From: a virus
DNA length: 37,749 nt
Strand: one strand, 5' to 3'
Virus record (IMG/VR): IMGVR_UViG_3300037246_001616
Location: 1-37,749 of that record
A program made the position numbers and the translations under genes. The notes beneath the pieces are model-generated. The model saw only the letters and a list, made by a program, of their open reading frames with translations, did not search any database and was not told the origin of the DNA. Below are positions 2,800-37,407 of the stretch, one piece after another (position 1 is the stretch's first letter; each line of letters opens with the position of its first letter).

Positions 2800-2812
2800 A
2801 TGTCGAGCCTGA
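2777..2812 (+). CDS. Possible 11-residue leader peptide overlapping the polymerase start
   Basis: ATG at 2777 opens a 12-codon frame, MVLAFAGSCRA and stop, whose TGA (2810-2812) lies just inside the polymerase gene that starts at 2800. A CGGAG ribosome-site candidate (2764-2768) is 8 bases before this ATG, whereas the polymerase ATG at 2800 has no obvious Shine-Dalgarno of its own and no in-frame alternative start upstream (a TAA occurs at 2752-2754). Ribosomes ending the leader could re-initiate at 2800, coupling polymerase synthesis to leader translation. A frame this short can arise by chance, so this is tentative. Confidence 0.3.
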   Translation: MVLAFAGSCRA

Positions 2813-5304
2813 ACCCGAATTGTACCGACTGCGGCCTCCACGCCACCGCTGCGACAGTCTGCATGGCAGGCTCTGGACCGCGCACTGCTAAAGACATTCA
2901 GGTCATGGTGGTCGGCGCAGCACCCAACGCAATTGAAGACAAGCGAGGCGTGCCGTTCCTCGGAGACGGTGGCAAGATTCTGCGCACCGCGCTAAACAAA
3001 AACAATCTGCTCGATAAAACGTACATCACTCAGCTGGTCAAATGCCGACCACCTAAAGATCGCGCACCGACCGCAGCTGAAGTCAAAGCCTGCCGCCCCT
3101 ACCTCGAAGAAGAAATTGCAGAATTAAATCCGGGGTACGTCGTCACCACCGGAGTCCTCCCGACGAAAACACTCTTCCGTGGAAAAGCGAAGATCACTCA
3201 GTTCCATGGAGAGATCATAGAGAATCCCAAAGTCGAGTTCGTCGGGATGCCCCTCTTCGATCCCTCGTACACGCTTCGCGATCCGTCTAAGCTCCCGGCT
3301 TTTCAAGATGACATCGCTCGGCTCGCTCGACTCATGAAGGGCGGCTTGCGCCACGATACAGTCAACTGGACGGTCGTTCGCAAGGGAAACCTCGACACCT
3401 TTATACGAGAGTTTGAGGAGGCAACCGAATTCGCATACGACTGCGAGACATCGGGGCTCTTCCCATTCGATAAAGATCGGCGAATCACCGCAATTGCTAT
3501 AGCCCTCGAACACAGGACGTGGGTCATCCCCGGATTTATGCATCCTGATTACCAGAGATTCTCGCACTCCCCGTTTGCGCATGGAGATGCGCTTCGGAAA
3601 CTGATGCGGCTTTTGTTTTTTCTTGCTCATCGTGACAACAAAAAAGCTTACGCCCAGAATGGGAAGTTCGATAACAAATGGATGCGATGCATGTTCGGTG
3701 GATCATTCCGCCTCACGTTCGACGTGATGCTCGCACACCATGTGTTGGACGAAAATCTCGCGCACGATCTGACCAGCCTGTGCCGCACCTACCTTGATGA
3801 GCCTGAGTATGACATCCCGCTGGCAGAGAAGCAGGGCAAGTCCGAGAAGCCCATGCGCAACTACAAATACTGTGGTCAGGATGCCCAGTACACCTTCCGC
3901 CTTGCGCACTTATTCATGCGGATGCTGCGTGAGGAGCCGGAGCTGCATCGCGTCTTCTGGAAGATCACCATGCCCGGTGCACGCGCGATGGAAGACGCCG
4001 AGATGGAAGGCCTCGCGATCAACGAGGTAGGCCGCAAAGAAGTCGGGCTCGACCTGCTATCAAAGATGATCACGCAACGTGAAGAGCTGAACGACATGAC
4101 TGGTGGCGACGTGAACTGGAACAGCCCAGCGCAGATCGGAAAACTCCTATACGAGGATCTGGGATATCAGTGCAAAATTTTTACAAAGAAAGGCGCGAAC
4201 AGCACCTCTGAAGAAGCGCTGCTTAGCATCGCAACCAAACCCGTCGTCAAAAAATTGCTCGCCTATCGTGGCGCAGCAAAAATGTTCAACACCTATATAA
4301 AGGGGTGGCAGAAGTATCGTGTCGGTGACAAATATTATTTCGATTACAAAATCCACGGCACTGTTACGGGACGCTATTCATCACCTCTGCACCCGATCCC
4401 ACGTGACGGGCAAATCCGCAACCTCATTACTGCGCCAAAAGGCTGGACATTCTGTGCGTTGGATCTCGCCACCGCTGAAATGCGCGTTGCTGCACACCTG
4501 TCCAAAGACCCAGAGATGCGTCGGTGCTTCGTTGACGGCATAGACGTTCACTGGCGCACGATGATTGAGAACTTAGCGATCACGACGCAAGGCGAGTGGA
4601 CTGAGCGTGTGTTTGCGACTGCAGAGAAACTCACCGGCAGAGCACACTCTTATAGTAAGTCCCTTGAGGTCATGATGGAGGCAGGACCAAAAAAGTGCAT
4701 CGCTGTCGAAAAGAAATGGTACGAAGGCCGAACGCGTGCCAAGGCAATCAACTTCGGTTTCATCTACGGCATGTACCCAAAGAAATTCATCCAGCAGGCA
4801 ACGCTCGACTACGGCTGGACGCCGACAATGACCGAGGCAAAGAACGCACGCACAGCGTACTTCCGTCTCTATTCTCGATTGGCAGGATGGCACACACGTA
4901 CAAAACGATTGGCAAAGACCGATGGGTTTATTCGCTGCCTGACGGGTCGTATGAGACGGCTCCCCGGCATCCAAGCCAGAGACAAATACGTTCGCATGGA
5001 GAACGAACGTCAGGCAGTGAATAGCCCTGTGCAGGGTTTGATCGGAGATTACAAAGTGATGCTCCTGATTGAAATTCATGAGACCTTTCCGCGCTCGAAG
5101 GTCAGGTTGGTCGGTGAGCATCACGATGCAGTGTTAACCATAGTGAAAAACGAGTCCATCGATGAGTGCGTACCGCAGATGTTGGAGATGGCAGCGCACC
5201 CGAAACTGATGGACACCTTTAAAATTAACCTCAGCGTACCGATGGAAGGCGAAGCCGAACTCGGACCTTGGGGAGCCGGAGTGAAATACGATGTCGCCGC
5301 TTGA
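2800..5304 (+). CDS. polA: Uracil-DNA-glycosylase-like domain fused to family A DNA polymerase with 3'-5' exonuclease
   Basis: This 834-residue protein is the replicative DNA polymerase. Residues 1-180 match family 4 uracil-DNA glycosylase: the four iron-sulfur cysteines are present (C8, C11, C82, C98, in a C-x2-C...C-x15-C layout) with the typical KCRPPKDRAPT segment. However, motif 1, usually GEAPG, reads GAAPN (39-43), and the usual HP motif reads DPSYTLRDP (154-162), so glycosylase activity may be altered or lost. Residues about 205-375 are a complete proofreading exonuclease: D214/E216, N287/D291 and Y357/D361. The polymerase palm carries motif A LDLATAEMR (catalytic D555), motif B RAKAINFGFIYG (K648; the Pol I 762-equivalent is F652) and motif C EHHDAV (D776). 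No 5'-3' exonuclease domain is present. It heads the rightward replication operon and overlaps the next gene by 14 bases. Confidence 0.93.
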   Translation: MSSLNPNCTDCGLHATAATVCMAGSGPRTAKDIQVMVVGAAPNAIEDKRGVPFLGDGGKILRTALNKNNLLDKTYITQLVKCRPPKDRAPTAAEVKACRPYLEEEIAELNPGYVVTTGVLPTKTLFRGKAKITQFHGEIIENPKVEFVGMPLFDPSYTLRDPSKLPAFQDDIARLARLMKGGLRHDTVNWTVVRKGNLDTFIREFEEATEFAYDCETSGLFPFDKDRRITAIAIALEHRTWVIPGFMHPDYQRFSHSPFAHGDALRKLMRLLFFLAHRDNKKAYAQNGKFDNKWMRCMFGGSFRLTFDVMLAHHVLDENLAHDLTSLCRTYLDEPEYDIPLAEKQGKSEKPMRNYKYCGQDAQYTFRLAHLFMRMLREEPELHRVFWKITMPGARAMEDAEMEGLAINEVGRKEVGLDLLSKMITQREELNDMTGGDVNWNSPAQIGKLLYEDLGYQCKIFTKKGANSTSEEALLSIATKPVVKKLLAYRGAAKMFNTYIKGWQKYRVGDKYYFDYKIHGTVTGRYSSPLHPIPRDGQIRNLITAPKGWTFCALDLATAEMRVAAHLSKDPEMRRCFVDGIDVHWRTMIENLAITTQGEWTERVFATAEKLTGRAHSYSKSLEVMMEAGPKKCIAVEKKWYEGRTRAKAINFGFIYGMYPKKFIQQATLDYGWTPTMTEAKNARTAYFRLYSRLAGWHTRTKRLAKTDGFIRCLTGRMRRLPGIQARDKYVRMENERQAVNSPVQGLIGDYKVMLLIEIHETFPRSKVRLVGEHHDAVLTIVKNESIDECVPQMLEMAAHPKLMDTFKINLSVPMEGEAELGPWGAGVKYDVAA

Positions 5305-11445: not shown

Positions 11446-11682
11446 ATGGCGTTTTTAAAGCAACACCGAAAGGCAGAGCTGCAACTCGAAGGGCGAAAGC
11501 TCATCGGTAAGTTCAGCGTGAGCCTGACCAATTCGGGCGACCGCGAGGTGATCCTTGAGTTCATCAACGAAATGCGTAAGCAGCTCCGCGAGTTTGATCC
11601 GAACAAGGGCAAGAAGAAGACGGGCGCGAAGCGACGTACCAAGAAGAAAGCCAAACGAAAGGTCATCAAGAGACGTAGGTGA
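11446..11682 (+). CDS. Small protein with highly basic C-terminal tail
   Basis: This 78-residue protein starts at ATG 11446 with AAAGGA upstream, one base after the previous stop. Residues 1-50 are mixed helix and strand (GRKLIGKFSVSLTNSGDREV), and residues 52-78 are almost all Lys/Arg (KKKTGAKRRTKKKAKRK). The tail suggests nucleic-acid binding. The family is not recognised. Confidence 0.7.
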   Translation: MAFLKQHRKAELQLEGRKLIGKFSVSLTNSGDREVILEFINEMRKQLREFDPNKGKKKTGAKRRTKKKAKRKVIKRRR

Positions 11683-12140
11683 TCATGGTCGATCTGGAAG
11701 GCACGCTGAGTGATCACACTGGTCGCTTAGCAACCCTTCTGGAGAACGAAGAGAAGTATCTCAAGCGTGACCGCACTGCGTGGAAGACCTACTACGCAGG
11801 ACTCATCGACGATCCGCCGCGCACTCACATCATGGAATTGGTGCGCGAGTACATCGAAGAAGACATTCGTCCCCTCATCTACAGCACCCGCTTCGTCAAC
11901 AAATACAAGCACGAAGAGCAGTGGTTGAAGCTGCACGGACTGTGGGATGAGGTCGATCTCTTGCAACGTGAGCCCCACATGACCAAGATCAAGGGACCTG
12001 ATCTCGTCGCGCAGTGGGTACGTCAGTACACCCCGCTGCTCATCGTCGATGATCGAGAAGAAGTACGCGAGTTGGTGCGTGAAATGCACACCGAATGTGT
12101 TGCTTACGCACCCGAAGCGTTCATCAACTTGGAGGGGTAA
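11679..12140 (+). CDS. HAD-superfamily phosphatase, polynucleotide-kinase 3'-phosphatase-like
   Basis: This 153-residue protein resembles the phosphatase half of T4-type polynucleotide kinase. Motif I reads MVDLEGTLSDHTGR: the nucleophile Asp is present, but the usual second Asp of DxDGT is Glu here. The typical RTAWKTYYAGLIDDPP segment, a strand PLIYSTRF ending in motif II, a Lys in MTKIKGPD and the acid motif LLIVDDREEV follow in order. It may remove 3' phosphates from nucleic acids for repair or act on nucleotides; no kinase domain is attached. GTG 11679 overlaps the previous TGA; ATG 11685 (two codons in) is an equally plausible start. Confidence 0.8.
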   Translation: MIMVDLEGTLSDHTGRLATLLENEEKYLKRDRTAWKTYYAGLIDDPPRTHIMELVREYIEEDIRPLIYSTRFVNKYKHEEQWLKLHGLWDEVDLLQREPHMTKIKGPDLVAQWVRQYTPLLIVDDREEVRELVREMHTECVAYAPEAFINLEG

Positions 12141-30199: not shown

Positions 30200-31044
30200 T
30201 AGCTTAGTCCTGCTCCTGCGATCTTCCACCTAGTTGCAGCGATCTTTTGTGCCACTGCTGCTCCACCTGCTGCCAATGATCTTGTACCGGTAGATGCGTC
30301 GTCCGCAAAGATCAACGTGTCGGTTGTGATTGCGATGCTAAACGGATTGACGCCGTCATTGTCCCAACCTAGGAGTGTTCCTATCGGATAAGCAACGGCA
30401 CCGTTCGCAGGGATGGTCATTGTCTGGCCTGCATTAGCGCCAGTGAAACCAACCGTCTGACCCCTGTCACTTAAGATGCCAACCCGACTAACAGTTGTCG
30501 AAATGATCCCGGAGATTCCTGATCCCGCAGGCTCCGAATATGCACCCGTCTCATCGAGGTAATCTGTCGCTGCACCAGCAGAACTCAACACAACCCCGTT
30601 CGTTGGAGAATTGTAAACACCAGTCTCATTGAGGTAGTCGCTAGCAGCTCCTCCATCGTTCAACGTGACTCCGTTGACACTGACACCTGTGATTGCTGCG
30701 TCAAGGTTGACAACAGGATTGATTGGATCCCCAGCATTGACGCTGATATTTACTCCGCCAACGACCGAGTTAACCACCCCTCCACCGGAGATCGTGATTG
30801 TTTTCGTCGAACCTGCACCGCTCGCTACGACATTGGGACCGACAAAGTCCAGCGTCGTCGCTCCACCCGCAAGAGGAACACCTTCGTCCTCAATTACGAT
30901 AGCGGAGGATATGTTTATATCGTCAGCCGCAATCTTACGACTGACTGTAATGCCAGCCTCGATGGTTTGCACTTCGAAGAAACTGTTAGGTCCGTCCAAC
31001 GGCAACGTCGCAAGTGGCAGACCTGAAATAAAGATGTTAGGCAT
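30199..31044 (-). CDS. Short tail-fibre-like protein with shared repeat modules
   Basis: This 281-residue protein starts at ATG 31044; upstream in-frame starts would lie inside the neighbouring gene. Residues 51-85 carry module A (IEDEGVPLAGG...STKTITI). Residues 91-142 carry module B (SVVGGVNISVNAGDPINPVV...VNGVTL...ETG), and a partial second B repeat with DYLDETGAYSEPAGSGI follows (151-177). The C-terminal 100 residues form a small beta domain (GQTMTIPANGAVAYPIGTLL). The same modules occur in the reverse order (B then A) in the 33714-36200 fibre. Fibre or adhesin function is inferred from these motifs and location. Confidence 0.75.
   Translation of the reverse strand: MPNIFISGLPLATLPLDGPNSFFEVQTIEAGITVSRKIAADDINISSAIVIEDEGVPLAGGATTLDFVGPNVVASGAGSTKTITISGGGVVNSVVGGVNISVNAGDPINPVVNLDAAITGVSVNGVTLNDGGAASDYLNETGVYNSPTNGVVLSSAGAATDYLDETGAYSEPAGSGISGIISTTVSRVGILSDRGQTVGFTGANAGQTMTIPANGAVAYPIGTLLGWDNDGVNPFSIAITTDTLIFADDASTGTRSLAAGGAAVAQKIAATRWKIAGAGLS
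30514..30894 (-). repeat. Fibre modules A, B and partial B' in the 30199-31044 gene
   Basis: Module A spans about 30790-30894, module B about 30619-30774 and a partial repeat of B about 30514-30594. The B segment VNLDAAITGVSVNGVTL is identical to the copy at 35757-36056. The order here is A-B-B', the reverse of the long fibre gene. Confidence 0.8.
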
Positions 31045-31402
31045 TATCGGCTTCCTCGTTTCCGTCAATTTCCGATTCTTCAAGCACACGTAGCCTGCCG
31101 TCTTCCGTTGCACGTGGGCTCTCACCGAAAGCTTCGCGCACACCACCGAGGAAGTTCACGTTCGGATCCGGACCTCCTGTCGTCAGGTCTTGGTCGGGCC
31201 GATAGAACGGCAGCGTGATGCGATCAGCCTGACGCGGAGCCAGACGATATGGATCGTAGTCATCGAGATCATCGATACAGACCTTGATCCCCGGACTGTT
31301 CGGGTCCGAATGCAAATCTTTCAAGAAAAACTTCCGCGAGCATCTCTGGCAAATGCCGATGCCGTAAGTTGAGTTGCCTGTTGGGTCTAAAAAAACTGGC
31401 AT
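31037..31402 (-). CDS. Conserved phage protein with cysteine zinc-site-like motif
   Basis: This 121-residue protein has GICQRCSRKF (C-x2-C), KDLHSDPNSPG and KVCIDDLDDYDPYRL, the layout of a common small phage protein often placed among tail or connector genes. Relatives I remember end the second knuckle with C-x2-C; here the last Cys position is Asp (CIDD), so the zinc site appears to have lost one ligand. The rest is charged and Pro-rich. CGAGGTAG precedes the ATG. The function is unknown. Confidence 0.7.
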   Translation of the reverse strand: MPVFLDPTGNSTYGIGICQRCSRKFFLKDLHSDPNSPGIKVCIDDLDDYDPYRLAPRQADRITLPFYRPDQDLTTGGPDPNVNFLGGVREAFGESPRATEDGRLRVLEESEIDGNEEADNA

Positions 31403-31404
31403 GA

Positions 31405-32472
31405 CTACCTCGTGTACGGTGCAATGTTAGGACGCAGGTACGCTTCCGACTCGTCGGTCTCACCATCCCATGCGTCTTTCAAATATTTTTCTGCGTCGAT
31501 ATCGATGAACGGTAGCTGTGAAACATCTACCTCTTTAATCTCACGACTCAGCTGTCGAGCAAGCTCACAAATAATTGCGAGGTACCAACGATCCGGCACC
31601 TCCAGTTCGTCTGTTAGTGCACCGACATCCTGCAACTGTCGCTGGATAAATCCGGTCACCTGATCGAACGTGAACTCAGCACCGGGTGCAGGCCACAACT
31701 CGATCTCCGGTCGTGTGCGTTGCCTGTCGTACCAGAACTGAGTCGGTCGTCCAGTGCTCGCTTTGTCAGGCAGGTTTGCGTAGTCGTTCCGATTGAGCTT
31801 GTACATCGGAATCTCGTTGGGCTTGTTCTGATAGACCAACTCAATCACATCGAGCACTGTGGTACCGGTCGCACGCAGTCGCCACGCATCGAACTCCACG
31901 ACGCGACTCGGTGCCTGCACATCTTCCCAGATCCATTCGTTGGCAACGACTTCTTGCTCGGTGCGTGTGATGTACGGCACTGCAGTCACGAAATTATCGT
32001 TCGACGCTTCGATCACATAGTCCCACGTCCCAGAGACGTTGGGCATGATGCCGAAGGTAGAGATTGCCATCGCACTGTCCAGTGCCATGGTGATCGTGCC
32101 CAACATCGACACCTGCGTGCACGCTGTCGTCAGGTCACTGTCGAACGCATTGCCAGCTACGCCTTCCGATGCAGTTGCGTCGCCAGTGAGCCGATTCTGA
32201 TTACGCAAGTTGATCGTGTACGTGGCTTCAGTACCAAGAGGACACGGCACCGTCTGCACACGCTCGTAGATCGGCAGGATGATCGGCACAACATTCCAGA
32301 GCTTGATGCCCTTATTGCTGAGCGTCATTACATACAGCCACAGCAGTTCGAGAGCAATCTGCAGATGCTCACCTGTGATCTGTTGTTCAACCATCTTGCA
32401 ACGCCGGAAGGCGTGGTCGATGAGTTGCTGGTTCAAAAATGTTGTTGAACCAATTGTCCCTGATGTCGGCAT
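31405..32472 (-). CDS. Tail adaptor-like protein with discoidin-like insertion
   Basis: This 355-residue protein has adaptor hallmarks in its N-terminus (helices to about 60, then NVVPIILPIYERVQTVPCPL). They resume in its C-terminal half: NEIPMYKLNRNDYANLPDKA, GRPTQFWYDRQ, IELWPAPGAEFTFDQV and DELEVPDRWYLAIICELARQ. Between them, about residues 92-212 form a beta-sandwich-like insertion resembling an F5/8 type C (discoidin) domain, with 'SEGVAGNAFDSDLTTACTQV' and 'GTWDYVIEASNDNF'. Discoidin domains often bind carbohydrate. The gene follows directly after a TAG stop of a tiny upstream ORF. Both domain calls are by pattern. Confidence 0.72.
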   Translation of the reverse strand: MPTSGTIGSTTFLNQQLIDHAFRRCKMVEQQITGEHLQIALELLWLYVMTLSNKGIKLWNVVPIILPIYERVQTVPCPLGTEATYTINLRNQNRLTGDATASEGVAGNAFDSDLTTACTQVSMLGTITMALDSAMAISTFGIMPNVSGTWDYVIEASNDNFVTAVPYITRTEQEVVANEWIWEDVQAPSRVVEFDAWRLRATGTTVLDVIELVYQNKPNEIPMYKLNRNDYANLPDKASTGRPTQFWYDRQRTRPEIELWPAPGAEFTFDQVTGFIQRQLQDVGALTDELEVPDRWYLAIICELARQLSREIKEVDVSQLPFIDIDAEKYLKDAWDGETDESEAYLRPNIAPYTR

Positions 32473-32562
32473 CTATCTCGCTCCGCGTGCGCTACTTCCC
32501 CGTCCACCGCGTGGACGTTGTTGATGTCCGCGTGGGCGAGGAGCTTTGATGTGTTTGTCCAT
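32473..32562 (-). CDS. Possible 29-residue Arg/Gly-rich peptide
   Basis: ATG 32562 opens a 30-codon frame whose TAG stop (32475-32473) directly abuts the ATG of the adaptor-like gene. The product is MDKHIKAPRPRGHQQRPRGG followed by RGSSARGAR, strongly basic with RGG motifs. The ribosome site is weak (GAGAATGTA). The exact stop-start junction suggests coupling and supports a real gene, but the length is so short that chance is possible. It fills the otherwise unexplained gap 32473-32585. Confidence 0.45.
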   Translation of the reverse strand: MDKHIKAPRPRGHQQRPRGGRGSSARGAR

Positions 32563-32585
32563 TACATTCTCAGCTTCTCGCCTCG

Positions 32586-33224
32586 CTATTTTTTTATGCT
32601 GCCACCTCTCGCGTACCCAACGCTGCCACCTTTGCACTTGACGTTCTTCGGCATGCCTGCCTTCGAAGCTTGACGTGCATTTTTGGGTGCTTTCAGTTTA
32701 TGCTTACCGTGCAAAACTTTTTTGGCATGTTTAAGAGCAGCATCAGCCAGTGCACCACCACCAGAACTAGCCGCAGCTTTCATGTAGCCGCCCTTTTTCA
32801 GTCCCGGCTTCAAACGTCCAGTGCCACCAGCTTCTGCTTCGGCCTGATTGCGGGCATTCTTCCCGCGACGAGCGGGCTGAACACCATGGTCCATGGTCTT
32901 CTGCTTGCCCTTCTTCATCTTGAACTCATCGGAGGTGTCGCCGCTCGCACCGTACTTCTTCACCTGACCACCGTACTTGTAGCCCATCTTTGCGCCAGCT
33001 TTCTTCAGCTTGCCGTGCATGCCGCCTTTCATGTAACCACCTTTCGCACGAGGCGTCGTGATCGTCACATCATCGACTTGGATCTCACGCTCTGGTCCCA
33101 TGAAGCCGCCTGCCATTTTCTTCACTGGACCACCACGTTTGTAGCCCTTGACGCGAGAACCAGTGAAGCCCTGTTCCGAAGGGAATTCAAATTCCCCGTA
33201 TGTTAATCCAACGTTCCGTTTCAT
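32586..33224 (-). CDS. Highly basic Lys/Gly-rich virion-associated protein
   Basis: This 212-residue protein is about one-third Lys/Arg/Gly, with repeated units such as GYKRGGPVKK, GYKYGGQVKK, KGGYMKGG and KKGGYMKA, and a basic tail. Such sequences bind DNA or act as disordered spacers in virions; similar K-G-G-Y-M repeats are common in late genes of environmental phages as I recall. The start overlaps the previous TGA by ATGA. No enzyme motif is present. Confidence 0.65.
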   Translation of the reverse strand: MKRNVGLTYGEFEFPSEQGFTGSRVKGYKRGGPVKKMAGGFMGPEREIQVDDVTITTPRAKGGYMKGGMHGKLKKAGAKMGYKYGGQVKKYGASGDTSDEFKMKKGKQKTMDHGVQPARRGKNARNQAEAEAGGTGRLKPGLKKGGYMKAAASSGGGALADAALKHAKKVLHGKHKLKAPKNARQASKAGMPKNVKCKGGSVGYARGGSIKK

Positions 33225-33712
33225 GAGTCTGGATCTCCTGTGATCTGTTGAATTCGTTGCCGAATCTGTTCTTTGTGGCCGCGTAAATTTTCGATGCCTT
33301 GGCCCAGTGCATCTTTGACCTGACGAGTTGCGCCAGTCTTAAAGCCTTGCATCGTAGTGATGCTTGTGTCGATTTCATCTCGCTCAGCTCGCAGCTCGAT
33401 CAATTCAAGGGCTGCATCAGCTGGCTTAGTTTCTTGGAGCTGTCCGATAGTACTGAGCGAATCGAACAATGCTCTGTGCGCCACCGCATCGTCAATGATG
33501 CTTAAACGCATGTTGTTATAGGTGGGGTTGTTGATCACTCCCACTCGATTGATTTCCCCTGCAACGGCATCAATCAAAGCCGTAGCCTCAGCGTTACTGA
33601 AGTTACTGGTGATGACGGTACGAATCGCATCAGCGAAGCCACCCTTGTTGAGCGTATTGTCAGCAACGACTGCGTCGATGCCTGCTTGCCATGCGTCTGA
33701 GAGAGTCGTCAT
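33221..33712 (-). CDS. Helical protein of unknown function downstream of the large fibre
   Basis: This 163-residue protein is helical, with an Ala/Asp/Thr-rich first half and a coiled-coil second half (ELIELRAERDEIDTSITTMQ; NLRGHKEQIRQRIQQI). AGGAAAT lies before ATG 33712. Its position directly after the fibre gene would suit a fibre chaperone or attachment factor, but no sequence match supports this. The family is not recognised. Confidence 0.65.
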   Translation of the reverse strand: MTTLSDAWQAGIDAVVADNTLNKGGFADAIRTVITSNFSNAEATALIDAVAGEINRVGVINNPTYNNMRLSIIDDAVAHRALFDSLSTIGQLQETKPADAALELIELRAERDEIDTSITTMQGFKTGATRQVKDALGQGIENLRGHKEQIRQRIQQITGDPDS

Positions 33713-33713
33713 A

Positions 33714-36200
33714 TTATTTCCTCAGTGCCGTGTAGATGAAATCACCATCAACCAAATCGATGATGCCCACCCCAGTCGTATTTGTCAGGTGAATCTCAAA
33801 TGCAATGCCAAGAGCCACTGCGATAGGGTTCGTAGCATCCGCGAACGGGAAAGTAATGTCCATGGTGTACATGTCTCCGATTGCAAGCCTACCAGTCACC
33901 GCTGTAAATTGTCCGGTGACCTGAGTGCTCGCCTTAGCAATCCCCGCTCCAGTCGCAATCGTCGGTGCAGTGTAATCGCAAGTGAAGTCGCAAGTATCTC
34001 CGTTGGTCTCGACCGCAGCGAGAGAAAACTGGAGCCGGAGGGTAATATCATGATTCCTGTCCAAATCCTCGGGGAAGGAGTGGTACAAGGATGCCAGTTC
34101 ACCGACCAGTGCAAACTGGAGCGCTGCAATCGTTGGCGTCGAGCCGATGGTAACATCCGTGGGCGCAGTCACACCTCTACGGAACTGGTCTCCGCTCAGG
34201 TGTAAGGTCTGTAGAGGAGGTGCCGCTTTGTCGATGATGCGCCAACGTGAATTAGTCGTATCGTAACGCACCTTGATTGTCTCGTCCGCTTCGAGCGTGT
34301 AGGTGTCGTTCGTAGCGGTGATGATGCGGTTGGCTGCTAGTGATGCTACATCCTCATCCGTAATTTCAATAGCATTCGCACTGATGTTTGTCAGGTCAAA
34401 TGTGTCACCGTCTTCAGCTGCAGTCGCATCGATACCAGTCAAGACAGATGTCGTCGCGTTGCCACTGATCCGTGCCCAATGTCGCATATTTGCGCTGAAC
34501 GCATCCGTCAACAAGCCGGTCCAATCGTTGTTGTTGCCTGCACCCAGTGCTGCCGGAGTGATCGGCGGATACTCCATCGCGCCTCGAACACGAACACGAC
34601 CACCGCTCAAGTCAAGTGCGTTGTTTGCCGGTAGCCACTGCATCTCCGCGTCAGGTGTAGCGATGACGTTGCCCATGGAGAAAGACGTGTCATCATCGAC
34701 ATGAACGTTGCCAGCACCGAAGTCAGATTGCGCGCCACCTGTATTCAAGATGAGGTAGTTCGATGCGAAGTTTATGATGGCTGAGCGAACTGCTATCCGA
34801 CTGCCCGAAACAACGAGACCAGTGAGCACATCCATGTCGAGGCCAATCCAGTCAGTTGCGATCTCAGAACCGATACCGAGACCAAAGAGAATGGTCGTAG
34901 CATTGGTCATGTGAACGCCACGGATAACTCCGTAGTTTGCGACTGCCGTTGCGTTGCGCGTATTAAAAAGAGGCTGGAGAATCAGTCCAGTAGTGCTACC
35001 AAGATTCAGTTCGTCACCTGCGTTATCGACACGGATGATTGGAGCGAAACTGAACCCACGATAAGTAACGACCGGGGTGACTCCTGCGCCAGTTATATGA
35101 TACTGACCCTGAGCCGCGTACATGAAAGATTGTGAAGGTGAAATGCCAACAGTCGTTGATCGATATGTAGGTCTCGCAAAGAACAGTGTCTGTACCGCGA
35201 ACCCCGGATTGACCGTCCACCGAATGTTACTGAGGTCATCTACGGTTGAAGAAATGAACGTAGGAGAATCGACAGTGAGGATGTTCGCAACTTGGAAGAG
35301 ACCAGCGACTGCCAATCCAGTAGCGGGAATAGTGTTCGCCCATCGGATTGCATAGAAACCAATATCTGTAGTCCAATCAAAATCGATAAGAATCGTACCG
35401 TGAGTATTGATCGTGCCACGACCCGCAGCATTCGCCCCTTGGAGATTCAGAATGTCGGCTACACCAGTACCACCGAAGATGTCACTGCCGGTCGTATTCA
35501 TGCGCATCAGATCAACGTCTGCCTCATCTCTCACTGCGAAGACATCACCTCCGACAGCGTTCGCATCAATCGTCAACTCATCAGTAGGATTGACAGTAAT
35601 CTGTGGGACTGTTGGATCGACATCGTATAGAGTTTGCAAACTGCTCAGACCTAGAGCAGCAGCAAGGTCTACACTGATGGGAGACGCGCCGAATGTCTGC
35701 GTCAAGTTCAGTATCGTTCCGAAAAGACCACTCAGGAACAGACTCGTGACGACCTGATCAACTGCCGTTATCGTCTTGGTGCTTCCTACACCACTGGCTG
35801 TGATGCTGGCACCTACGAAATCAAGAGAGGTCGCTAAAGTCGCTAGCGGAACGCCCTCTTCCTCAATGGTAATGCCAGTGCCAGCTGGAACTGAGTAGGC
35901 TCCGGTTTCGTCAAGGAAGTTGGTTGCGGCACCAGCCGCAGTGAGCGTCACTCCGTTGACGGACACGCCAGTGATGGCTGCGTCGAGATTGACAATGGGA
36001 TTGATAGGATCCGCCGCATTGACGTTAATATTAACGCCACCGACAACGGAATCTACCTGCCCACCTCCGCCTCCACCGGCAAGCCAATCGTAGTCGTAGT
36101 TATCAGGGGTGAGCTTGGTTAGAACTTCTCCAGTCGCGCCGTCATCCGGGATCTGTATCGCTACAATCCCTGAGAAACCTAGACCCGACTGTGCAGTCAT
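33714..36200 (-). CDS. Large tail fibre / adhesin
   Basis: This 828-residue protein has an N-terminal segment with NYDYDWLAGGGGGGQVDSVV, a module B-A pair (residues 49-148; GGVNINVNAADPINPIVNLD to STKTITAV) and a very long beta-strand shaft (about 150-680) with GDTFDLTNISANAIEITDED and 'DETIKVRYDTTNSRWRIIDK'-type strands. A distinct C-terminal domain of about 150 residues opens LHLSGDQFRRGVTAPTDVTI. No intramolecular chaperone or enzyme motif is evident. It probably binds the host surface. The ribosome site GAGGTAACTC precedes ATG 36200. The upstream coiled-coil gene could supply an attachment partner. Confidence 0.75.
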   Translation of the reverse strand: MTAQSGLGFSGIVAIQIPDDGATGEVLTKLTPDNYDYDWLAGGGGGGQVDSVVGGVNINVNAADPINPIVNLDAAITGVSVNGVTLTAAGAATNFLDETGAYSVPAGTGITIEEEGVPLATLATSLDFVGASITASGVGSTKTITAVDQVVTSLFLSGLFGTILNLTQTFGASPISVDLAAALGLSSLQTLYDVDPTVPQITVNPTDELTIDANAVGGDVFAVRDEADVDLMRMNTTGSDIFGGTGVADILNLQGANAAGRGTINTHGTILIDFDWTTDIGFYAIRWANTIPATGLAVAGLFQVANILTVDSPTFISSTVDDLSNIRWTVNPGFAVQTLFFARPTYRSTTVGISPSQSFMYAAQGQYHITGAGVTPVVTYRGFSFAPIIRVDNAGDELNLGSTTGLILQPLFNTRNATAVANYGVIRGVHMTNATTILFGLGIGSEIATDWIGLDMDVLTGLVVSGSRIAVRSAIINFASNYLILNTGGAQSDFGAGNVHVDDDTSFSMGNVIATPDAEMQWLPANNALDLSGGRVRVRGAMEYPPITPAALGAGNNNDWTGLLTDAFSANMRHWARISGNATTSVLTGIDATAAEDGDTFDLTNISANAIEITDEDVASLAANRIITATNDTYTLEADETIKVRYDTTNSRWRIIDKAAPPLQTLHLSGDQFRRGVTAPTDVTIGSTPTIAALQFALVGELASLYHSFPEDLDRNHDITLRLQFSLAAVETNGDTCDFTCDYTAPTIATGAGIAKASTQVTGQFTAVTGRLAIGDMYTMDITFPFADATNPIAVALGIAFEIHLTNTTGVGIIDLVDGDFIYTALRK
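35757..36056 (-). repeat. Fibre modules B and A in the 33714-36200 gene
   Basis: Residues 49-108 of the large fibre form module B and 109-148 module A. Here B comes before A; in the 30199-31044 gene A comes before B. The identical stretch VNLDAAITGVSVNGVTL in both genes indicates fairly recent exchange or strong selection. Confidence 0.8.
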
Positions 36201-36208
36201 GAGTTACC

Positions 36209-36772
36209 TCAGACTACAGTGTTGATCAGCTCGCGCACCTTCACGAGCTGGTCTTCTTTCCCTTTAAGCTCATTAGCTCTCGTATCGAGGGCATCAGCTT
36301 TCTGTTGGAGTGAGGCTTCCCGACCATCCAACTCACCTGCGCGAGCTTCGTTGGTTCTCTTTTCGGATTCCACGGCAGCAACAGTGCTCTCCGCCCGCGT
36401 GAGCGCTAATTTTTCGCGGTCATGTAGGCTTTGCGCCTCTGCCGTTAATGCATCCGCTTCCTGCGTGCTTTTTTCCACGATCAGCTGCGCCTGAGTTTTA
36501 GCCTCCTCGACAATAGCTTCGCTTTTCTCCAGCGCTTCCGCCAACGCTGTGTCAGCTTCTGCTCGGGCCTGCTTAGCCTGCTCTTTGATGATGCCGATCT
36601 CGCTAACATCACCGATTACAGCAGCAGCCTCCTGCGCTTTGCTCTGCAGCTCCTCGAAGTCTGCAACCTTCTTTGCAAGTTGGGGTGAGTCCTCAAAAAG
36701 GAAACGCGGGACGCGAACAAAGTCGCTCCCCACGTTACCAGCCATGTCTCCGCCTGCCAGTCCGTTGCTCAT
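36209..36772 (-). CDS. Coiled-coil virion-associated protein
   Basis: This 187-residue protein, after a 25-residue N-terminal segment with FVRVPRFLFEDSPQLAKKVA, is a continuous charged coiled coil with alternating Ala/Glu/Lys heptads (AKQARAEADTALAEALEKSE and so on). The ATG overlaps the previous TGA (ATGA). Such proteins may act as scaffolds or fibre-attachment spacers. It lies between a beta-rich virion gene and a large fibre gene. The function is not known. Confidence 0.7.
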   Translation of the reverse strand: MSNGLAGGDMAGNVGSDFVRVPRFLFEDSPQLAKKVADFEELQSKAQEAAAVIGDVSEIGIIKEQAKQARAEADTALAEALEKSEAIVEEAKTQAQLIVEKSTQEADALTAEAQSLHDREKLALTRAESTVAAVESEKRTNEARAGELDGREASLQQKADALDTRANELKGKEDQLVKVRELINTVV

Positions 36773-37407
36773 GCCGCTAACCCCGCTTGAACGAGATCGA
36801 ACTCACAGGTGCCAATACCGGAGTTGGTAAGCAACCTGACTGCCTGAGGAGGGAACGCCAAGTTGCCGTCCGCATCTGCCGTCTCTCCTGCGAGAGTTGG
36901 GTGATCGAACCACGTGAGAATGGTGCTGGCGTCTTCCCACGGACTGTCGAACGTATGCTGCACAGTGACGTTCACCGTTCCCGTGATGATAAGTGCGAGA
37001 CCGATGCTCGTCGGTGTTACGTTCTTATCGACAGGAATAACAATGGAACCACCAACTCCGTTAGTGCCGATTTCAATATTGGTCCCGACAGCAGCATCAG
37101 CAAAGATCGAATCCACAGTGAGGAAGTCGAGCTGAGTTTCGACGGTCCCAGCAGCGGGACCAGCAATCGTTTCGCTGATGGGACGATTCTGCTCATCAGT
37201 GCCTGTGATCGTGAAGTTGATGCCGCTAAGAGCACCGACAGACTCCAATTCCACTCGCCGCTGCACATCGAGCGTCGCAGGTGCAACGCCCCCGTCAGAA
37301 AAAGCTCCGTTGATCAGCAAGAAGCCTGCACCTCCTATCTGCTGATCTACGCAAATTCCATTGGGGTCCGCTGCATCCAGCTGCCTAATTTGCTGAATAG
37401 GTCTCAT
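36769..37407 (-). CDS. Beta-rich virion structural protein
   Basis: This 212-residue protein is beta-rich with VELESVGALSGINFTITGTD, GTNIEIGTNGVGGSIVIPVD and a jelly-roll or Ig-like composition. It starts at ATG 37407 with TAAGGAGAGC upstream, directly after the stop of the partial gene at the window end. The sequence resembles decoration or tail-associated structural proteins of environmental phages, though no precise family is recognised. Confidence 0.65.
   Translation of the reverse strand: MRPIQQIRQLDAADPNGICVDQQIGGAGFLLINGAFSDGGVAPATLDVQRRVELESVGALSGINFTITGTDEQNRPISETIAGPAAGTVETQLDFLTVDSIFADAAVGTNIEIGTNGVGGSIVIPVDKNVTPTSIGLALIITGTVNVTVQHTFDSPWEDASTILTWFDHPTLAGETADADGNLAFPPQAVRLLTNSGIGTCEFDLVQAGLAA

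Follow-up and report, generated by a model that had tools for sequence, protein, structure and literature searches.

The family A DNA polymerase encoded in a 37.7-kb virus record (IMG/VR IMGVR_UViG_3300037246_001616; "the window" hereafter denotes the whole analysed stretch of 37,749 nucleotides) carries at its N-terminus a domain with the fold of family 4 uracil-DNA glycosylases (UDGs), in which the uracil pocket has been rewritten. Judging from mutants of the Thermus enzyme (Tth UDGa), this domain has very likely lost uracil excision. The loss of the pocket is recent, lineage-specific and focused on the motifs. The reading that we favour, by a little better than an even chance, is that the domain is a family 4 UDG without uracil excision that would now serve a proofreading polymerase, otherwise active, as a structural or DNA-holding module.

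In this protein, a single chain unites the UDG fold with a 3'-5' exonuclease and a family A polymerase, as in the phage fusions of PHROG_17, and the AF2 model of the full protein reaches a pLDDT of 91.1 and a pTM of 0.87. The features are presented in Table 1. The exonuclease model matches aa 197-376 of the ORF, and the intactness of the exonuclease and polymerase catalytic residues was read from invariant alignment columns. The ORF lies in a replication block with genes for a PD-(D/E)XK (Cas4-like) nuclease, a Sak4-like ATPase, an SSB-like protein and an SNF2 helicase, and a primase-helicase gene is located nearby on the opposite strand. Near the end of the block, a protein with a PNKP-type polynucleotide phosphatase domain (Pfam HAD_PNKP, PHROG_415) is encoded at 11679-12140 (+). 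The genes in 31037-37407 (-) form a variable part of the phage; in a comparison of eight contigs, their clear relatives came almost exclusively from G007 and G008. A search for a near-identical cultured phage found none.

Table 1 Features of the UDG-exonuclease-polymerase fusion in the window (residue numbers refer to the fusion protein)
Feature	Position	Strand	Evidence
UDG-exonuclease-polymerase fusion gene, 834 aa, family A DNA polymerase	2800..5304	+	Pfam DNA_pol_A, DNA_pol_A_exo1, UDG; PHROG_17
UDG-fold domain of family 4 at the N-terminus, aa 1-182 (aa 8-179 matched by the family models)	2800..3345	+	TIGR00758; AF2 domain model
C8 and C11, predicted first two Fe-S ligands (CxxC)	2821..2832	+	Alignment with Tth UDGa and relatives
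Motif 1, aa 39-43: GAAPN, canonical GEAPG (A40 = Tth E41)	2914..2928	+	Alignment
E46 (= Tth E47), kept	2935..2937	+	Alignment
F53 (= Tth F54, stacks on uracil), kept	2956..2958	+	Alignment
Q78, where Tth UDGa has the uracil-reading Asn (N80)	3031..3033	+	Asn in 17 intact relatives; two base substitutions needed
C82, predicted Fe-S ligand	3043..3045	+	Alignment with Tth UDGa and relatives
D87, where Tth UDGa has the water-positioning Asn (N89)	3058..3060	+	Alignment
C98, predicted Fe-S ligand	3091..3093	+	Alignment with Tth UDGa and relatives
Motif 2, aa 154-156: DPS, canonical HPA (D154 = Tth H155)	3259..3267	+	Alignment
3'-5' exonuclease domain, about aa 190-380	3367..3939	+	Pfam; D214, E216, D291, Y357, D361 intact
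Family A polymerase domain, about aa 385-834	3952..5301	+	Pfam; D555, R644, K648, F652, H775, D776 intact

The similarity of the N-terminal domain to family 4 UDGs is far beyond chance: TIGR00758 matched with an E value of 1e-34 and 119.7 bits (5.6 bits below the curated cutoff of 125.3), Pfam UDG with 5e-23, and PDB 1UI0 (Tth UDGa) with 1.3e-23. A fold search with the full-length model yielded only polymerases among the matches listed, and the UDG domain was therefore modelled and searched alone. The model of the isolated domain (AF2, pLDDT 92.1) superposes on the S. tokodaii and Thermus enzymes (4ZBX, Z 26.3; 1UI0, Z 26.1; rmsd 1.8 Å over 176-178 residues), with lower scores for UdgX (up to Z 24.5) and family 5 UDG (Z 19.6). 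The original prediction, made from the sequence alone, that the first ~180 residues are a family 4 UDG is thereby confirmed both at the sequence level and by the structural comparison that it had proposed. The four cysteines that it named as iron-sulfur ligands (C8, C11, C82 and C98) are correctly placed in the alignment, which points to an Fe-S cluster in the window domain.

In Tth UDGa, the pocket consists of E41, G42, E47, F54, N80 and H155, while N89 places the water (Xia et al. 2017, PMC5387724). The window has A40 for E41, A41 for G42, Q78 for N80, D87 for N89 and D154 for H155; only F53 and E46 survive, and the pocket does not fit the pattern of active family 4 enzymes (motif 1 with Glu and Gly/Ala, motif 3 with Asn and motif 2 with His). 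The motifs GAAPN and DP (DPS) had been read correctly in the original prediction, and its view that the usual catalytic residues are not kept is borne out, with E, N, N and H all replaced; the pocket is in fact more altered than reported there, since the changes at the N80 and N89 equivalents were overlooked. N80 of Tth UDGa recognises uracil through two base-specific hydrogen bonds, H155 contacts O2, and single mutations reduce k2/Km about 2500-fold (H155S), 900-fold (E41Q), 40-fold (N80A) and 7-fold (N89A) (PMC5387724). The joint replacement of these four residues, together with the large costs of single mutations in the Thermus enzyme, therefore makes the loss of uracil excision in the window domain very likely.

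How recent is this change, and how far is it focused on the pocket? Close IMG/VR relatives with about 66-86% polymerase identity keep GEAPG, N and HPA, and the pocket is almost fully canonical in 17 close relatives. Q78, D87 and D154 are common only to the window and two further contigs, L001 and L002 (92% identical; these three are referred to as the trio), two pattern scans for additional members of the altered clade gave only L001 and L002 again, and H154D was found in the trio only, both in the pattern scans and among 85 fusions. Sequencing error is ruled out for positions 78, 87 and 154, at which three contigs agree, while A40 is present in the window contig alone (motif 1 is GEAPS in L001 and GESPN in L002). 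Across the 17 intact relatives, 70 UDG positions are invariant; the trio departs from them at seven, six of which fall in motifs. The proportion of changed positions is 6/10 in motifs versus 1/60 elsewhere (Fisher 1e-5), or 4/5 versus 3/65 if the pocket is defined from the literature (p 1.8e-4), values that describe concentration rather than discovery, as the domain was chosen for its odd motifs. Private changes at these positions in the control relatives were restricted to L003 (N87G) and L038 (E46D), L030 being a separate altered case.

The UDG domain is under purifying selection, with pairwise dN/dS of 0.09-0.20 within the trio, similar to the rest of the protein. Positions 40, 41, 43 and 156 vary inside the trio, whereas four control triples, each comparably or more divergent, show no variation at motif positions. 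Such motif variation combined with low dN/dS is the pattern predicted by a relaxed catalytic constraint and a continued constraint on the fold. Two further observations concern this phage group. Synonymous divergence among the trio is lower in the UDG domain (2800-3345; 0.25-0.37) than in the exonuclease-polymerase part (3367-5301; 0.49-0.73), perhaps as a trace of recent module exchange. Moreover, L030:3501-5996 (contig 3300027978_000009) displays an independent partial pocket loss, with GDAPK, N78T and D87 and with H154 kept.

The UDG module has been swapped by recombination between closely similar polymerase bodies, as is evident from L034, which carries a canonical UDG domain on a near-identical polymerase body. 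The window and L034 are 67-73% identical over aa 1-180; past this point the values are mostly 85-97%. In the exonuclease-polymerase tree, L034 nests with the window and L002 (support 96/93), whereas in the UDG-domain tree it groups with L007 (support 97/87). A UDG tree constrained to place L034 with the trio was rejected (AU p 0.004), as was an exonuclease-polymerase tree constrained to place it with L005/L007 (p 0.036). The conflict between the trees and the step in identity therefore indicate that canonical and rewritten modules sit on closely similar bodies, a natural contrast by which glycosylase activity can be told apart from a structural role. The presence of a canonical domain on a near-identical polymerase also means that catalysis is not generally unwanted.

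Another important question is whether pocket loss is peculiar to this lineage. Among 85 distinct UDG-polymerase fusions, the pocket is canonical in 56 and altered in 15, motif 1 is of the GQ type in 11, and three are incomplete; all four cysteines are kept in 79. On a tree of the exonuclease-polymerase part only, built by a quick method and containing some long branches, the altered state requires nine changes, at least six of them forced by well-supported branches. Pocket loss thus recurs at least six times among the 85 fusions, usually with the Fe-S cysteines kept, which suggests that the fold, and not uracil removal, is often under selection. Cultured phages that combine kept cysteines with a changed pocket are PMBT14, Serbin, LysYB1, PaBHU15 and BSTP12, and in the SPO1-type phages Goe2 and EalM132 the pocket is degenerate and the cysteines are lost too. 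The earlier suggestion of novelty for a kept cluster beneath changed motifs may hold for the combination with H-to-D, seen in three contigs only, but not for cysteines over a degenerate pocket as such, which recur in other phages. A different variant is found in the UDG domains of L046-L053, L166 and L169 (L046:3501-4013), in which motif 1 is GQNPG and N, F, H and the cysteines are kept; its Gln-Asn doublet resembles both the E41Q-G42D doublet engineered into Tth UDGa, which restored activity (PMC5387724), and the QD pair found in family 1.

The fusion itself is known, as the original prediction had suspected: PaBG gp205 (PMC7412058), the SPO1 gp31-type proteins and the polymerase of Thermus phage phiLo (PDB 9QHS) share the window's domain order, the UDG fold preceding a family A polymerase. 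In PaBG and its relatives, the UDG-polymerase fusion has been described and the domain taken as active (PMC7412058), and the SPO1 polymerase name is attached to UDG-family PDB entries. The solved phiLo structure (9QHS) has a canonical pocket, unlike the window, and the SPO1 type has lost both cysteines and pocket, whereas the window keeps the cysteines and carries D in place of H. The open papers searched contained neither a paper on the phiLo polymerase structure nor an account of catalytic status across phage fusions. What is new here is the time scale of pocket loss, as a natural series of presumably active and inactive domains, and not a new category.

Among stand-alone enzymes, family 4 UDGs (Tth UDGa, 1UI0; S. 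tokodaii, 4ZBX) share with the window about 33% sequence identity, the fold, the four Fe-S cysteines and the F54 and E47 equivalents, but they possess the E41, N80, N89 and H155 equivalents and no polymerase fusion. UdgX of M. smegmatis (6AJO) likewise has an Fe-S UDG fold (Z about 24); its hallmarks are the KRRIH cross-linking loop and the motif 1 GEQPG (PMC10776899), whereas the window has no such loop between aa 82 and 98 and lacks the GEQPG, N and HP motifs. The poxvirus UDGs (vaccinia D4, monkeypox virus E4) offer a precedent for the role proposed here, in that the UDG fold acts in a clamp-like way within a viral polymerase (PMC10115419), although they are separate subunits of a family B polymerase and glycosylase activity is reported in the vaccinia holoenzyme. 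Uracil read-ahead sensing by archaeal family B polymerases was also compared, and the known uracil-contact residues are absent from the window domain.

Taken together, the replaced pocket, the motif-focused change, the predicted intact fold, the intact exonuclease and polymerase residues and the recurrence of pocket loss argue for a retained domain without glycosylase function. In such a scenario, the UDG domain of a small phage lineage would have lost uracil excision and stayed folded, probably stabilised by an Fe-S cluster, and it could serve as a built-in grip on the template or duplex, like the clamp-like UDG of poxviruses, while the exonuclease and polymerase, whose catalytic residues are intact, would remain active. 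The DNA-holding role is suggested by analogy, and docking of DNA by the domain is compatible with the data. Three points count against this reading: the identity of Q78, D87 and D154 in the trio could reflect a new function or just shared ancestry, the near-identical polymerase of L034 has a canonical domain, and the low dN/dS could result from folding constraint alone.

The main rival, which we consider rather unlikely, is that the domain is a relic inactivated by drift, functionless and kept solely since an essential polymerase needs a folded N-terminus. The drift of motif positions within the trio agrees with it, as do the shrunken and strongly degenerate N-termini of Agatha, Triscuit and the SPO1-type phages. 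However, the losses in the trio are confined to the pocket, with 59 of the 60 other conserved positions kept, the Fe-S cysteines included, and the domain is present in every closely examined relative.

A switch of specificity, in which the remodelled pocket would recognise or excise a different base, either damaged or modified, appears improbable. UDG-superfamily enzymes with other residues in motifs 1 and 2 do act on other bases (PMC5387724), and Q78, D87 and D154 are identical in three contigs, N78Q requiring two base changes; yet the members of the trio differ in motif 1 and at position 156, unlike in a newly selected pocket, and no base-modification gene tracking the trait was found. We give an equally small chance to the extended version, in which these three residues would form a polymerase-tethered reader or remover of a non-uracil base and phages would recombine uracil-type and new-type modules on the same body.

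Uracil sensing without excision, proposed in the original prediction, would have the domain bind template uracil and stall the polymerase. It could draw on the kept stacking Phe and E46, but in Tth UDGa E41Q or G42D alone left no visible binding of U-DNA (PMC5387724), and the N80 and H155 equivalents are both replaced. We regard it as very improbable because the residues that recognise uracil are themselves gone, the uracil-reading Asn being Gln and the O2-contacting His being Asp. Some UDG families work without a Glu in motif 1, and the TIGR00758 score lies close to the family 4 cutoff. Nevertheless, a still working uracil-DNA glycosylase with an alternative set of residues is hardly credible, since four pocket residues are replaced together and H155S alone costs more than three orders of magnitude (PMC5387724).

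A genomic cause of the loss was sought as well. A uracil-DNA or modified-DNA phage genome was rejected as the reason, as altered and canonical close relatives show no difference; thymidylate synthase occurs only in L041 and two cultured relatives, and dUTPase (PF00692 only) in none of 18 records. A compensating second UDG was likewise rejected, each record having a single UDG match, inside the polymerase. No gene was credibly gained or lost with the altered trait. In L009, L010, L011, L013, L016 and L197, genes for thymidylate synthase, dCMP deaminase, dUTPase or pyrimidine hydroxymethylase, which the window group lacks, are located beside or upstream of the UDG-polymerase gene, and such neighbours in many cultured relatives hint that the fusion is connected with pyrimidine metabolism or with modified bases.
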